A stretch of 64,000 nucleotides of DNA from Balneolales bacterium ANBcel1 (GTDB lineage: Bacteria; Bacteroidota; Rhodothermia; Balneolales; Natronogracilivirgulaceae). Below are positions 1-62,176 of this stretch, piece by piece (the stretch's first letter is position 1; each line of letters opens with the position of its first letter). Both the position numbers and the translations under genes were made by a program. Under the pieces are notes generated by a model. The model saw only the letters and a program-made list of their open reading frames with translations, did not search any database and was not told where the DNA came from. Location: NCBI GenBank assembly GCA_029688905.1, contig JARULB010000001.1, forward strand, positions 62,001-126,000, read 5' to 3'.

Positions 1-290
1 CCCCCGAGAAAATCGGAAACGCTGTCTTCTGGTTTCATCTTGTTCCGGATGCTTGTGTGATTCCATACCGGCCGGCATGGCCGGGCTATCGCGCAATCTA
101 TCGCTTTTGGCAATAATACGTAAATAAAAAAACGGTTTCGGCGGCGCGGGCAGACCGGAACATATTCTGCGGGCATGGTGTTACTAGACAAGCGGCTGAA
201 CGATTGTCAACCGATACGGAAGGTAACCCAGGATACGCTGAAATATGATTGTTATCCGATCGTCCCGTATCACCACACAAATTATCTCTC

Positions 291-55377: not shown

Positions 55378-56742
55378 ATGGCTTCTCGAGTGATTTTTCC
55401 CCTGCTAATTGCGGTACTGCTGCTTTCTGCCTGCTCCGGTAACGACCAACCCGTCACCGGCTATCCCTCTCCTCCCCAAACTCCCGACTGGGCGAAGAAT
55501 GCGACGATATACGAGGTTAACCTCCGCCAGTACACCGAAGAGGGCACCTTTGAGGCTTTTGCGGAACATCTGCCCCGGCTCCGGGATATGGGGGTCGACA
55601 TTCTCTGGTTTATGCCGATCCATCCGATCGGTGAGAAAGAACGCAAAGGCTCCATGGGAAGCTATTACTCGGTATATGACTATTACGGTGTAAACCCGGA
55701 GTTCGGTGACAAGGACGATTTTCGCCGGATGGTATCCGAAATTCACGACCTGGGCATGTATGTAATACTGGACTGGGTTGCAAACCACACCGCCTGGGAT
55801 GCCGTCTGGACCGAAACTCACCCCCATCTGTACGAAACAGATGACGAGGGCAATTTCATTATTCCTCCCGATACCGACTGGACCGATGTCATCCAGCTGG
55901 ATTACAGTCTGGATGAGACCCGCGAAATGATGCACGATGCGCTGTTATACTGGGTCGAGGAGTTTAACATTGACGGGTACCGGTGCGATGTGGCGGATTA
56001 TGTGCCCACTGATTTCTGGAATGAGGCGCGCAGCCGGCTGGATGCGGTAAAACCGGTCTTCATGCTTGCAGAAGCGGAAACCCCGGAGCATCACATCCAC
56101 GCATTCGACATGTCTTATGGGTGGGAAACCCATCACAGGATGAATGAGCTGGCCGCCGGGGACCTGACAATTAACGAGTTTGAGCAACACCTGGAGGAGA
56201 ATCGCCGCCGCTTCCCGGATTACGCCTATCGCATGCAGTTTACCTCGAATCATGACGAGAACAGCTGGAACGGCACTGTCTTTGAGCGCTACGGCGACGG
56301 GGCCGAAACATTTGCCGTACTGGCATCTACGATTCCCGGCATGCCCCTGGTGTACAGCGGTCAGGAGGCGGCCATGGACAAACGGCTCGAGTTTTTTGAA
56401 AAAGACCCCATTGAGTGGGGCGACTATCCCCTGCTTGATTTCTACACGCGCCTGCTTCGTCTGAATCAGGAGAATCATGCGCTTTTCAACGGCATACACG
56501 GCGGGGAGCTGGTGCGGGTATCAACCTCGGAGGATGACCGGGTATTCGCCTTCTACCGGCAGAAAGAGGGAAACAGAGTCTTCACCCTGCTCAACCTCAG
56601 TGATGAACCGGTCACCTTCGACATCTCCTCCCATGCCATTGCCGGAAGTTATACGGAGCTGTTTACCGACGAGCAGGTGACGCTCACCGACCGGGAGTCC
56701 TGGGAAATGGACAGCTGGGGGTACCGGGTCTATTTCTATTGA
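55378..56742 (+). CDS. GH13 alpha-amylase-family lipoprotein
   Basis: This 454-residue enzyme cleaves alpha-glucans. The lipoprotein signal ends LLSACSG; the (beta/alpha)8 barrel shows ILWFMPIHPIGE, VILDWVANHT (region I), GYRCDVADYVP (region II nucleophile Asp), FMLAEAETPEH (region III acid Glu) and TSNHDENSWN (region IV Asp). A C-terminal beta domain (about 380-454) follows. As a surface or periplasmic lipoprotein it fits starch or maltodextrin breakdown. It is expressed from a LacI-operated promoter. Its last 7 bp overlap the convergent pta stop. Confidence 0.93.
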   Translation: MASRVIFPLLIAVLLLSACSGNDQPVTGYPSPPQTPDWAKNATIYEVNLRQYTEEGTFEAFAEHLPRLRDMGVDILWFMPIHPIGEKERKGSMGSYYSVYDYYGVNPEFGDKDDFRRMVSEIHDLGMYVILDWVANHTAWDAVWTETHPHLYETDDEGNFIIPPDTDWTDVIQLDYSLDETREMMHDALLYWVEEFNIDGYRCDVADYVPTDFWNEARSRLDAVKPVFMLAEAETPEHHIHAFDMSYGWETHHRMNELAAGDLTINEFEQHLEENRRRFPDYAYRMQFTSNHDENSWNGTVFERYGDGAETFAVLASTIPGMPLVYSGQEAAMDKRLEFFEKDPIEWGDYPLLDFYTRLLRLNQENHALFNGIHGGELVRVSTSEDDRVFAFYRQKEGNRVFTLLNLSDEPVTFDISSHAIAGSYTELFTDEQVTLTDRESWEMDSWGYRVYFY

Positions 56743-57722
56743 TCCGCAGCCATCAGCGCGGTAACGCAGGCCGTATTGACGATATCTTCCCAGTTGCATC
56801 CCCGGGAGAGGTCGTTCATCGGCCTGGCCAACCCCTGAATCACCGGGCCGGTTGCCGTTGCGCCGGCCAGTCTTTCAGTGATTTTGTAACCGATGTTGGC
56901 CGCGTCCAGATTCGGGAATACGTAGACATTGGCTTTGCCGGCCACGGTTGAGTCGGGGGCCTTGCTTTTGGCAACCGATGCGACGTAGGCGGCATCAAAC
57001 TGCAGCTCTCCGTCGATATTCAGTTCGGGCTGACGCTCTTTGGCCAGAGCGGTTGCCTGTGCCACCATCTGGCTGCGCTCGTGCTGTGCGCTTCCGCGGG
57101 TAGAAAAGGAGAGCATGGCGACCGAAACTGACTGACCGGTCAGGGCCTCGTGTGTGGCGGCCGAATCGACGGCGATGCTGGCCAGCTGGTTTTCGTCAGG
57201 ATACGGTACCACGGCACAATCGCCGAAGGTCAAAACGTGACCGTCCATCGTGCTCATCAGGAAGATGCTGGATACGATTCCGGATCCTTCCTTCAGTCCG
57301 ATTCCCTGAATGGCGGCCCGCAGCACATCGCCAGTGGTATTGACTGCTCCGGCTACGGCTCCGTCGGCATCGCCTGAAGCCACCATAAGCGCGGTAAAAT
57401 AGAGCGGTTGAGCGGCGACTTCCTCTGCCTGTTCCGGTGTCATGCCCTTGTGCTTGCGCTTCTCGTGCAGCAAAGCGGCATAACGACCCAGGGTCTCCCC
57501 CTTTTCAATTTTTACAAATTCAATTGAATTCGGCAACACTACTGACTCAGAGGAGGCTTTCTGCCTGATGGCCTTTTCCGAGCCCACCAGGATAACCCGG
57601 GCGAGATCGTTATCCGCCAGAAACGCAGCTGCCTTGACGGTTCTGATGTCATCGGTTTCGCACAGGGCGATACGCTTTTTCTGTAGTCCGGCTTTGTACC
57701 GAATCTGGGCAATTATATCCAT
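56736..57722 (-). CDS. pta: Phosphate acetyltransferase
   Basis: The 328-residue enzyme interconverts acetyl-CoA and acetyl phosphate. PTA motifs include the N-terminal KRIALCETDDIRTVKAA, SIFLMSTMDGHVLTFGDCAV, ALLSFSTRGSAQHERS-like region (AMLSFSTRGSAQHE) and the C-terminal KANVYVFPNLDAANIGYK. It is short-form PTA without extra regulatory domains. It lies 42 nt downstream of the caspase-fold lipoprotein gene, all three genes facing minus, so ackA, the lipoprotein and pta are likely one operon for acetate formation. Confidence 0.93.
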   Translation of the reverse strand: MDIIAQIRYKAGLQKKRIALCETDDIRTVKAAAFLADNDLARVILVGSEKAIRQKASSESVVLPNSIEFVKIEKGETLGRYAALLHEKRKHKGMTPEQAEEVAAQPLYFTALMVASGDADGAVAGAVNTTGDVLRAAIQGIGLKEGSGIVSSIFLMSTMDGHVLTFGDCAVVPYPDENQLASIAVDSAATHEALTGQSVSVAMLSFSTRGSAQHERSQMVAQATALAKERQPELNIDGELQFDAAYVASVAKSKAPDSTVAGKANVYVFPNLDAANIGYKITERLAGATATGPVIQGLARPMNDLSRGCNWEDIVNTACVTALMAADQ

Positions 57723-57764: not shown

Positions 57765-59555
57765 CTATCTGACGAGATTCATGTTTGAATTGCCGATAAA
57801 CCGCGGGTTCTGGGCGCGGTCATGCAATCTGCGTGAAGTGAAGGGAATATTGCGTTCCAGGTGCTGCTCCACTGCTCCGGTTGTTGACGCACCGTTCTGC
57901 AGCGCCTCAAAAAAATACCAGGTAAAAATGTCATAGGGATAGTCGCTTCTCTCCCCTCCATCGGAATAGGAGGAGGCATGCTGACCGGGTTCCGCGGCCC
58001 AGAATATGGCTCTACTCTCGGAGTTTGCGGTGAAGTTTTCTGACGTCCGTTCCAGCAGCTGCGAACGCGACCGTACCTGACCCGCGGGGGATTGTCCATA
58101 TACCGAACTTCGCTCCCAGTCGGTATCCATAACCAGTAGTGTTTGCCTCGACCGGATGTCGCCCAGAATATTGGAGAAATCATCGAACGCGACAAGCCGC
58201 TCGGTTCTTGCGCCCGGATCATAGTCGACGGGAAGCATATAGAGCCGGTCGCCGTCATCGGTAAAAGCATGTCCGTAATAATAGACAAAAAGATCCGACT
58301 CATCCATGGAAATATGACGCCCGCCGATCATCAGGGAGTCGCTCTCCTGCATAAAGGCCTGCCATTCATCCAGGGTAAGGTTCTCAAAAACGCGGACATT
58401 ATCGCTGTAAAAGCCCATGGTCCGGGTCAAATAGTGTGATACCAGCTCGGCGGTGCGAGCGGCATATGGCAGGCTTCTCACCGGAGTGGAGTACTCCCCG
58501 TTTACAATCACGATGGCAATGCCCTCTGGATTACTGTGCCGGTTTTCAGGAACATCACGCTCTATCGAGAGATCTCCGAATACCGGTTTCCCGGCTCCAG
58601 CAATAACGGTACCGGAAAGGTCCGATTCAGCCGCACGCCAGACAAGCCGGGATCGCTCCCTTTCGACATAGGCAGGTCCGCTGCTTTCCAATATGCGAAA
58701 CCAGCGGTCATTGATCGTGCTCAGATACGGAAAAAAGCCGGAAGATGACGCATGGCGGATGATATTGCCGCTGATCGCCGCGGGATCGGTCCGGAGCGGC
58801 ACATTATTCTCCATGATCTCCACATACTCCTGCAGAAAGTGATCGACAGGGATATGCCTGCTGAAATGCTTCCCGTCATAGGACACTTCCACATGCACCC
58901 CGGCTGTGTCGGCAATATCGAGGATGCGAATTCCGGTCTCCTCTGGCAGGTTGACGGTCAGCTGGTCGTTTTCGAGAGCGATTTCCCGGCCTTCGGCAAT
59001 CAGGGAGTCCGCTCTGGTGATGGTGACCCTGGCCGCCACGTCATCGGGGGCAGAAACGGTCAGCGTATCGGTGACAAGATGCAGCCCCGTCTGCTGCAGC
59101 AGTCGTTGCTCATCGGCATACCGCGGTTCCCCAACCGGTTTCATGGAGAGAAATGACGCAGCTCCAATACCCACGGACGCCAGGTTCAGCATGGCCCGCT
59201 CGCGATTGGAAAGTCGGTCGGCATCCACAACGGAAGTATTGGACAGATAGAGGCCGGCCGTCATGCCTGCAAGTCCCAGCGTCAGGTACCCGTAACGGGG
59301 GTGGTAGCTCTGGACATATCGCCTGGACACCAGATGTTCCTGATAGCTGAGTTCGCGACGAACCACAGGACTCAGTACCAGCAGCGGCTGTTGAGGCGTG
59401 GGAGTCACAATCACATCCAGAAAAGACGTTTCCGATAGAATCTCTTCTGTAGCGGGATCCGTAACGGGTTCCTCTTCCACGATCCAGGAAGCCGTTGTGC
59501 ACCCTGCCCCAAGCAGCAGCAAGAGGCCGAACAAAAGAAACCGGTGAAACGACAT
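57765..59555 (-). CDS. Caspase-fold lipoprotein without a catalytic cysteine, inside the ackA-pta operon
   Basis: The 596-residue protein begins with a lipoprotein signal ending GAGC (Cys19), has hydrophobic patches around 88-104 and 122-138, an Ig-like beta region (about 160-290), and a caspase-like domain (about 345-480, IAIVIVNGEYSTPVRSLPYA). The caspase His-containing motif is present as YYYGHA (425-430, His429), but the place of the catalytic DxC reads VMDTDW (475-480). Cys19 is the only cysteine in the protein, and it is used for lipidation, so cysteine protease activity is excluded. It lies 9 nt after ackA and 42 nt before pta on the same strand, a placement I know of from no other ackA-pta operon. 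It may be a binding scaffold rather than an enzyme. Confidence 0.8.
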   Translation of the reverse strand: MSFHRFLLFGLLLLLGAGCTTASWIVEEEPVTDPATEEILSETSFLDVIVTPTPQQPLLVLSPVVRRELSYQEHLVSRRYVQSYHPRYGYLTLGLAGMTAGLYLSNTSVVDADRLSNRERAMLNLASVGIGAASFLSMKPVGEPRYADEQRLLQQTGLHLVTDTLTVSAPDDVAARVTITRADSLIAEGREIALENDQLTVNLPEETGIRILDIADTAGVHVEVSYDGKHFSRHIPVDHFLQEYVEIMENNVPLRTDPAAISGNIIRHASSSGFFPYLSTINDRWFRILESSGPAYVERERSRLVWRAAESDLSGTVIAGAGKPVFGDLSIERDVPENRHSNPEGIAIVIVNGEYSTPVRSLPYAARTAELVSHYLTRTMGFYSDNVRVFENLTLDEWQAFMQESDSLMIGGRHISMDESDLFVYYYGHAFTDDGDRLYMLPVDYDPGARTERLVAFDDFSNILGDIRSRQTLLVMDTDWERSSVYGQSPAGQVRSRSQLLERTSENFTANSESRAIFWAAEPGQHASSYSDGGERSDYPYDIFTWYFFEALQNGASTTGAVEQHLERNIPFTSRRLHDRAQNPRFIGNSNMNLVR

Positions 59556-59564
59556 TAGCTCGCT

Positions 59565-60788
59565 TTAAATCCAGGGTGACTGCTTGGATGCGGTGGCAAT
59601 TTTTGCTGCATCGATGGCAATCACAAGTTCTTCATTGGTTGGAATAACGTAGACATCCACGCTTGAGTTGTCTGCACTGATTTTTCGCTCACCACGGGCA
59701 TCCGGATCCCGGTTTCGGTCTGGGTCCAGAATCACCCCCATCGCCTCCATGTTTCCAAGTGCCCGCTCTCTGATGTCCGGAGCGTTCTCTCCGATTCCCG
59801 CCGTAAAAATGATGGCGTCGCATCCGTTCATCACCGCAAAGTAGGAACCTGTGAATTGCCGGATCCGATAGCAAAAAGATTCTATCGCCTGTTTGCATCT
59901 TCTGTCGCCGTTTTTTGCTTCTTCTAGCAGATCACGCATATCGGCGGCATATCCGCTCATGCCTAGCAGGCCGCTGTGGCGGTTCAGCAAGCCGTGCAGG
60001 CTGCTCAGCGGCAGCTCCTCTTTTTCCACCAGATAAAAAAGTATGGATGGGTCGATATCGCCGCACCGGGTACCCATAATCAGGCCGGACAAGGGGGTAA
60101 ATCCCATGCTGGTATCCACCGAGTTACCGTCCTTGATTGCCGTGATGGACGAACCATTGCCCAGGTGACAGGTAATGAGCCTGGTATTTTTCGGCCCCTG
60201 CCCCGTAAGCCGGTAATAGCGGCGGCTTACAAAATAGTGTGATGTTCCGTGAAAGCCGTATTTCCGGATGCGGTATCGGCGGTACATCCGGTTGGGGATT
60301 GCGTAAAGATAGGCCTCGGGAGCCAGCGACTGGTGAAACGCCGTATCAAAAACTGCGACATGCGGAACATCGGGCAGGCTTTGACGCGCCGCCTCAATTC
60401 CCCTGAGGTTGGGTGGATTGTGAAGCGGGGCCAGGTCGATGGCCTGTTCGATCGCCTCAACCACCGTATCGTCTATCAATACCGAATCCTTGAACGATTC
60501 ACCGCCGTGAACAACGCGGTGTCCAACCGCCTTTATATCATCCTTGGATTTCAGCAGCTTATTGTCCTTGTCCAGGATGTAGTCCATGATCGCCTTGAGC
60601 GCCTGGGTATGGTCTTCAATCACGGTGCTCTCCTTCACCGGCTTCTGCCCCTTCACCTCGTGCTTGACTATGGAAGTCACCGCGCCGATGCGCTCCACCA
60701 TACCCGTGCAGAGATACTCCTCGCTTTTTGTCTCGATTAACTGATATTTAACCGAGGAGCTGCCACAATTGATAACCAGAACTAACAT
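59565..60788 (-). CDS. ackA: Acetate kinase
   Basis: This 407-residue enzyme makes acetate and ATP from acetyl phosphate. Motifs include MLVLVINCGSSSVKYQL, the catalytic region AVFDTAFHQSLAPEAYLYA, RLITCHLGNGSSITAI, and the C-terminal AIIFTAGIGENAPDIR. It is first of a three-gene minus-strand unit with the caspase-fold lipoprotein (9 nt apart) and pta. A -35 TTTGCA and -10 TATAAT lie just upstream at 60839-60813. Confidence 0.96.
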   Translation of the reverse strand: MLVLVINCGSSSVKYQLIETKSEEYLCTGMVERIGAVTSIVKHEVKGQKPVKESTVIEDHTQALKAIMDYILDKDNKLLKSKDDIKAVGHRVVHGGESFKDSVLIDDTVVEAIEQAIDLAPLHNPPNLRGIEAARQSLPDVPHVAVFDTAFHQSLAPEAYLYAIPNRMYRRYRIRKYGFHGTSHYFVSRRYYRLTGQGPKNTRLITCHLGNGSSITAIKDGNSVDTSMGFTPLSGLIMGTRCGDIDPSILFYLVEKEELPLSSLHGLLNRHSGLLGMSGYAADMRDLLEEAKNGDRRCKQAIESFCYRIRQFTGSYFAVMNGCDAIIFTAGIGENAPDIRERALGNMEAMGVILDPDRNRDPDARGERKISADNSSVDVYVIPTNEELVIAIDAAKIATASKQSPWI

Positions 60789-60883: not shown

Positions 60884-62176
60884 TCAGAAAAGGAACTGGG
60901 CTCCAACACCTAGCAGATGCCTGACATCAAGGGCGCTGTCTTCGCCTGCGGGTTCAGAAAGCCAGACCGGTAATTCATAACGAATGAAAAAACCGCGATT
61001 CCTTCCCATATAGTCCGGAATATTGAGCGACAACATGAAGCCGGCTCCGGCGTTTGCCTGCACTTGTTGCCAACCGTTATGATCATGGAACAGGCCGGCA
61101 TCAGCGAAAACATAGGACTCGAATCTCAGCAGATCGCCAAGATACGGGATTTTTGAGAAATATGTGTCCACCGGATTGGGGTAGTAAATATCGATATTGC
61201 CCGAAAAAGCGTGGCGTACCCAGGGCGGGCCGGCGGTTTCCAGTGCTTCGGCGGTCTGCATGCTATAGCCGCGCAGACCGGGGCCGCCGGGGATATGGAT
61301 CCAGCCGGACTCAACCCATCCCTGGGGGATGGTTCCGCGTGCTCTGGTAAACCGGGAGTCCAGCAGGGCGAATGGAGCCGCATCAGATGGAAGGTAGCGG
61401 TGTTCCGGTGGCAGCGCATCCGAAGAAAAGCCTGCGAAGAGTCGCGTTCTGGCGTAAAACGGACCTGATATCCCGATTTGGTTCAGCAGTTCAAGCTGAA
61501 GCTGCCCGAACAGCCCCTCGGGTCCTGTTCCATCCGGGCGGTCGGCCGGCAGGCCGGAGTAATCCAGGAATTGGGCATCGGTGGATAGTGGCGCGCCCGC
61601 GATAGCCGCCCCTCTGAACGTCCAGCGCCCCAGCGCGTTGTGGTCCCTCCTGCGCACTGACGATCTGACAAATAAAACCGGATCATCCTGCCACAGATCA
61701 TTATATATCAGATAGTCATCGTCGAACCGCTTGTACAGACCGGCGTCAAATCGAACGTCGGTCGCGACAAATTCGTCGAAGCCGCGCTGCCAGCGTTTCC
61801 GGATTCCCGCTTCGTGCAGATGCACCCCGGCACGCATGCTGCTGAACAGGCGAACAGCCCCCTCGCTTCGCGGAGCAGTGATAGCCGCTATGGGATGTGT
61901 ATAAGAGATATGGTAGGAAACCGGCGTATCCGGGAGCCAAGTGGCCAGGCTGAACCCCGCGCTGAGTCGGTGCGGACCGTCCAGAAATGTGCGCGGATCC
62001 TCTCCGCGAAACCTGGCCCCTAGAAGGATACCATCGACTGCATTGAACCAGACATCCGGGGCCACACGAAGCTCATAGCCTTCGCCCGAGACAATCTGGG
62101 CATGAGTTTGATGTGTTGTGACAACCGTCACAAACAGCATAAAAACGCAGAAAAAAAATAATTTCATCGGTTTCAA
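60884..62176 (-). CDS. Outer-membrane beta-barrel protein, Omp85-like without POTRA
   Basis: The 430-residue protein has a signal peptide ending THAQ (about residue 26), alternating beta-strand pattern over its whole length, the loop motif HIPGGPGLRGYSMQ (like the Omp85 lid-loop V/LRGF/Y) and a C-terminal strand RHLLGVGAQFLF ending in Phe, as outer-membrane barrels do. No POTRA domains precede the barrel. It could be a short BamA/TamA-related porin or transporter. It is about 95 nt upstream-facing from ackA and alone on the minus strand. The family is suggested, not certain. Confidence 0.72.
   Translation of the reverse strand: MKPMKLFFFCVFMLFVTVVTTHQTHAQIVSGEGYELRVAPDVWFNAVDGILLGARFRGEDPRTFLDGPHRLSAGFSLATWLPDTPVSYHISYTHPIAAITAPRSEGAVRLFSSMRAGVHLHEAGIRKRWQRGFDEFVATDVRFDAGLYKRFDDDYLIYNDLWQDDPVLFVRSSVRRRDHNALGRWTFRGAAIAGAPLSTDAQFLDYSGLPADRPDGTGPEGLFGQLQLELLNQIGISGPFYARTRLFAGFSSDALPPEHRYLPSDAAPFALLDSRFTRARGTIPQGWVESGWIHIPGGPGLRGYSMQTAEALETAGPPWVRHAFSGNIDIYYPNPVDTYFSKIPYLGDLLRFESYVFADAGLFHDHNGWQQVQANAGAGFMLSLNIPDYMGRNRGFFIRYELPVWLSEPAGEDSALDVRHLLGVGAQFLF

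Follow-up and report, generated by a model that had tools for sequence, protein, structure and literature searches.

The 64,000-nucleotide stretch of the Balneolales bacterium ANBcel1 genome analysed here (the window) contains an open reading frame with an ATG start whose 596-residue product joins a lipoprotein signal peptide to a predicted caspase-like domain, and which is flanked by ackA and pta (Table 1). The three genes are all on the minus strand, with ackA lying 9 nt upstream of the pseudo-caspase gene and pta 42 nt downstream, just as a sequence-only reading of this region had described, and profile matches to PF00871 and PF01515 confirm the identities assigned to ackA and pta, respectively. 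The number of promoter-like sites in the gene block is no higher than in shuffled sequences. Further upstream is a gene coding for a putative outer-membrane protein, which is present in 109 of the 129 genomes of the order. Its product matches nothing in Pfam or NCBIfam and, in a profile search, no PDB sequence, and it contains a GGPGLRGY segment whose resemblance to an Omp85 motif is only an impression.

Table 1. Positions in the window of the pseudo-caspase gene, the predicted parts of its product, and the neighbouring genes.
Feature	Coordinates	Strand	Basis
Coding sequence of the pseudo-orthocaspase lipoprotein (596 aa)	57765..59555	-	Open reading frame; orthologue in 107/129 order genomes
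Lipoprotein signal peptide and lipobox (Cys19 at 59499-59501)	59499..59555	-	Sequence
Predicted membrane-proximal module: three long antiparallel strands (residues 20-50, 58-86, 138-166) bracketing a helical hairpin	59058..59498	-	AlphaFold2, pLDDT 87 and 93.5
Predicted helical hairpin (residues 88-106 and 117-136)	59148-59294	-	AlphaFold2 models
Remaining strands of putative Ig/FN3-like sandwich (residues 175-235)	58851..59033	-	VIA-align Z 6-7.5, model range about 25..220
SH3b domain (residues 242-307)	58635..58832	-	Pfam SH3_3; structure match
Caspase-fold domain (residues 340-596), catalytic Cys lost	57768..58538	-	Z 18.8-20.5
His429, at the position of the catalytic His (retained in f1 alone)	58269..58271	-	Alignment
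Asp477, probable equivalent of the metacaspase S1-pocket Asp (TbMCA2 Asp211)	58125..58127	-	Inferred from DACFSG alignment
Asp479, at the catalytic-Cys position	58119..58121	-	Alignment
ackA, neighbour, not needed for pseudo-caspase retention	59565..60788	-	PF00871; distribution
pta, neighbour, not needed for pseudo-caspase retention	56736..57722	-	PF01515; distribution
Putative outer-membrane protein, conserved upstream neighbour of the block	60884..62176	-	Neighbourhood comparison

The N-terminus of the protein has a lipoprotein signature, a signal peptide with the lipobox LLGAGC, and Cys19 within it is the sole cysteine of the protein. Among 56 orthologues Cys19 and Trp24 are nearly invariant, with Cys19 kept in at least 90% of those aligned, and 52 of the 56 have no cysteine beyond the lipobox; the absence of other cysteines is thus a property of the family and not a quirk of the ANBcel1 strain. 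The protein is most likely an outer-membrane lipoprotein and would face the periplasm, a placement that we presume from the threonine at position +2 and from there being no recognised retention or surface-export signal.

We built an AlphaFold2 model of the full protein on the 56 orthologues, with a mean pLDDT of 87 and a pTM of 0.50, and modelled the N-terminal half separately (pLDDT 93.5). In the model the C-terminal domain is a caspase fold, and the structural match is unambiguous: Foldseek pairs residues 340-596 with caspase-8/c-FLIP, MALT1, caspase-3/7/9, and plant metacaspases, at E-values down to 4.5e-11, and superposition on caspases, MALT1, and metacaspase 4 gives VIA Z-scores of 18.8-20.5 and rmsd values of 2.2-3.4 with about 200 residues aligned. 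A fold search was required, as the domain has no sequence match among solved structures. Peptidase family C14 (PF00656) and the NCBIfam model NF047832 (caspase, EACC1-associated) do recognise it over residues 345-557, but below both curated cut-offs, at 19.6 of 21.4 bits and 31.3 of 140 bits, respectively. Of the orthologues, 26 of the 56 match Peptidase_C14 at E ≤ 0.1, the best at 4.8e-12.

The N-terminal half is modelled as three strands of about 30 residues each together with a helical hairpin, all at a pLDDT of about 93. Because the two long helices sit between strands 2 and 3, the predicted topology places the hairpin at the same end as the lipidated cysteine. Hydrophobicity of the two hairpin helices is only moderate, averaging about 1.1-1.2, and R79 and Q82 within this membrane-proximal module are invariant among the aligned orthologues. 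The PDB search listed no clear match to the module, its hits being taken up by SH3b and Ig-like entries, although this does not imply a new fold. At their distal ends the long strands seem, in the model, to join an Ig/FN3-like sandwich, a fold common enough to make the evidence for it weak. The SH3b domain that follows is recognised by Pfam SH3_3 in 15 of the 56 orthologues and matches in structure (Z 9-11) those of peptidoglycan enzymes of the NlpC/P60 type and of YrvJ, and the weak PDB profile matches of the protein are almost all to SH3b-containing entries.

For the active site we used as alignment reference three true caspases of the same order with SGHG and DACFSG motifs; these intact-dyad proteins are encoded in some genomes of family f2, away from the gene block (L099:5316-6110, L100:6947-7735, and L101:7859-8647). 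The window protein has YYYGHA at residues 425-430, which includes His429, and VMDTDW at residues 475-480, and the alignment puts Asp479 in the catalytic-Cys column. The His-Cys dyad of active C14 peptidases is therefore absent, with Asp in place of Cys, and the same is true of the family, for at the nucleophile column the 56 aligned orthologues have Asp (35), Glu (11), Ser (4), Gln (2), or others (4), and none has Cys. With the nucleophile gone throughout, the caspase-fold domain should be unable to act as a cysteine protease. All 12 members of family f1, to which the window protein belongs, retain the catalytic His, whereas the other 44 orthologues all lack it and mostly have Tyr or Phe instead. 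The Asp477 column has Asp or Glu in all 56. Of the 39 f2/f5 members, 38 keep a second S1 Asp (column 368), where f1 and f4, the window protein included, have Thr, Ser, or Val; these metacaspase S1 residues are named in PMC4357240 and PMC6426788. That each lineage keeps a different remnant of the active site is what an early loss of catalysis, with differing constraints left behind, would be expected to produce. The motifs, the single cysteine, and the non-catalytic caspase fold claimed in the sequence-only reading are thus all borne out, the fold by the model and by the profile matches of the orthologues.

Orthologues are present in 107 of the 129 genomes of the order, and in 76 of the 84 high-quality ones, ruling out a strain-specific oddity or a recent insertion. 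Nearly all are single-copy and most are full-length, with the architecture conserved. A sample of 296 genomes from across the phylum gave no full-length match beyond the order, the matches there being to the caspase domain only, and no Peptidase_C14 match at E ≤ 0.001 was found in the ANBcel1 genome. Family f3 is without the pseudo-caspase gene, and its role is therefore not universal in the order. In unrooted single-gene trees the AckA of f3 clusters with that of the f1 genome G112 (L140) and the f3 Pta falls inside an f1+f3 group; this placement of f3 among or next to f1 suggests that f3 lost the gene, and makes it less likely that f3 was primitively without it.

Across the order the gene is part of a block with the arrangement UXS, (NUDIX), putative outer-membrane protein, [ackA], pseudo-caspase, [EamA-type transporter], pta, [amylase-like], sufB. 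We tallied the position of ackA in 106 carriers of the pseudo-caspase gene, leaving out the borderline genome G075. It is directly upstream in 43, which come from families f1, f2, f4, and f5, so that, as had been anticipated, the placement is not confined to one strain. It is intact elsewhere in 34, in which the pseudo-caspase gene is still in the old block, is missing or only a remnant in 28, and is ambiguous at a contig end in one. Eight high-quality carriers (at least 90% complete and no more than 5% contaminated; G113, G117, G127, G011, G012, G016, G017, and G083) have no detectable ackA and no detectable pta. Family f3 shows the reverse, with ackA but no pseudo-caspase gene, and with pta within 75 nt after ackA in four sampled genomes. 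Co-occurrence with ackA and pta is thus not obligate, and since either side is kept without the other, the gene order is recurrent but not a functional requirement. Judged by these distributions, the location between ackA and pta is that of an inherited order-level gene block and not a metabolic partnership.

The block varies in several other respects. Remnants of ackA with in-frame stops are found beside intact pseudo-caspase genes at L089:7185-7397 (G086) and G128:C127:1808-1957, where ackA is apparently decaying in place. At several f2 loci (L060, L067, L070, L075, L076, L082, and others) the pta beside the pseudo-caspase gene is divergent, with 45-51% identity to that of the window, and these are the genomes whose ackA moved elsewhere or was lost. 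At loci lacking ackA and pta in genera g5 and g8 (L045, L046, L049, and L111) and g6 (L139) the slot is taken by an acetyl-CoA synthetase gene in divergent orientation (TIGR02188; L045 scores 1005 bits). A lactate-type MFS transporter gene (NF049980 at L045) accompanies it at all of these loci but L139, which is cut off by the contig end. The synthetase is a paralogue distinct from the ANBcel1 genome's own (53% identity, contig C4). The EamA-type transporter, of about 285 aa, is encoded 0-24 nt after the pseudo-caspase gene (L055, L058, and most of L062-L098); most f2 genomes have it, as do some of f1, f4, and f5, but in the window the position is empty.

We propose that this order-specific pseudo-orthocaspase is an anchored outer-membrane lipoprotein that has its SH3b domain at the peptidoglycan, binds a partner through its dead caspase domain and works as a tether or docking scaffold of the envelope, a reading to which we assign about an even chance. 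The lipid and the helical hairpin would anchor the protein in the inner leaflet of the outer membrane, as the predicted secondary structure and topology suggest, and the three-stranded stalk, whose length is estimated from the topology, could then hold the Ig-like and SH3b domains at the peptidoglycan. A point against the peptidoglycan contact is that SH3 folds can bind proteins as well. The dead caspase domain may bind, but not cleave, a basic peptide or a partner protein, and an acidic S1 remnant would be available for binding at one position in every member and at both in the f2/f5 lineage. Only one of the two S1 Asp residues is left in f4 and in f1, the window protein's own family, and binding of basic peptides may thus not extend to all members. 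In a bolder form, which we offer tentatively and hold to be rather less probable, the protein would represent an unreported class of envelope scaffold core to one order, in which a membrane-inserted hairpin and a rigid beta stalk present the SH3b and dead caspase domains at the peptidoglycan and the caspase cleft acts as a peptide receptor.

In the main rival reading the pseudo-caspase helps to assemble the adjacent putative outer-membrane protein, or is its partner lipoprotein, much as other lipoproteins assist beta-barrel machines. Where ackA is absent from the locus the outer-membrane protein gene lies directly upstream, at 8-9 nt in four species lacking ackA and pta and at roughly 11-80 nt in other genomes, and the two proteins diverge at similar rates, with 60% and 64% identity to L042 as against 89% for AckA and 81% for Pta. 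However, the upstream gene occurs without the pseudo-caspase in f3, the pseudo-caspase occurs without the upstream gene in genus g28, and the neighbour is a barrel only putatively, and we regard this explanation as unlikely.

A much less probable role is that of a sensor of acetyl-phosphate or acetate metabolism. The sequence-only reading had suggested that the protein, coexpressed with acetyl-phosphate metabolism, could sense metabolite or protein state or be a binding scaffold; the scaffold is still plausible, but a functional tie to that metabolism is not supported. In favour of a sensor are the ackA-X-(transporter)-pta order, which recurs and has ackA immediately upstream in 43 genomes, and genera g5, g6, and g8, which lost ackA and pta and yet have the acetyl-CoA synthetase gene in the same slot. 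Acetyl-phosphate sensing is nonetheless largely refuted by the double dissociation from ackA and pta (the eight carriers with neither, the 34 with relocated ackA, and the f3 genomes with ackA-pta alone), and acetyl-phosphate is in the cytoplasm, from which the signal peptide directs the protein away.

An enzyme of altered chemistry, with Asp or Glu acting at the Cys position (together with His429 in f1), is similarly improbable. This position is acidic in 46 of the 56 orthologues and the His is present in every f1 member, but ten are non-acidic, the other orthologues have Tyr, Phe, or other residues for His, and no dyad is common to the whole family. Least probable by some way is a decoy or regulatory function towards an active caspase, such as c-FLIP has towards caspase-8, for although active-type caspases occur in some members of the order (L099-L101), the protein is exported and its own genome has no C14 match at E ≤ 0.001, which speaks against an active partner in the same cell.

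Most known pseudo-orthocaspases come from cyanobacteria and Rhizobiales and have been linked there to photosynthesis, for which the Balneolales are, to our knowledge, not known. That almost the whole order has retained a lipid-anchored dead caspase, in our preferred reading a tether or docking scaffold of the envelope, points to recruitment of the fold for a structural or binding function there, and the natural series of dyads within the order (HD, YD, YE) provides a test set for the function of a dead caspase cleft. The Balneolales lipoprotein is an order-wide pseudo-orthocaspase, sharing with the pseudo-orthocaspases of Klemencic et al. 2019 (PMC6426788) a caspase p20 fold with a substituted His-Cys dyad, and differing in dyad, architecture, lipidation, and lineage. 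The acidic S1 positions retained in those proteins are both present in f2/f5 and one is present in the window protein, and in ANBcel1, as in many unicellular cyanobacteria (PMC6426788), the pseudo-form is the only orthocaspase found in the genome. Their dyads are commonly YS, YN, YA, or FS (PMC6426788), whereas here they are HD, YD, YE, or FD. Only 10 pseudo-orthocaspases were reported among 1078 Bacteroidetes sequences (PMC6426788), and in the limited literature searched we found no paper describing such a lipoprotein, or joining orthocaspase, Bacteroidetes, and outer membrane. The Balneolales protein is further set apart from the pseudo-orthocaspases of PMC6426788 by its lipidation, its long-strand stalk, its Ig-like and SH3b domains, and its mostly single-copy presence across an order. 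The Trypanosoma brucei MCA4 pseudopeptidase (PMC4357240, PMC6426788) also has a metacaspase fold with a replaced dyad, but is eukaryotic, has a YS dyad, and is not a lipoprotein with SH3b. Finally, the SH3b domains of peptidoglycan enzymes (NlpC/P60, YrvJ, and endolysins) have the same fold as that of the Balneolales protein, but those enzymes carry a hydrolase, whereas here the SH3b domain precedes a dead caspase domain.
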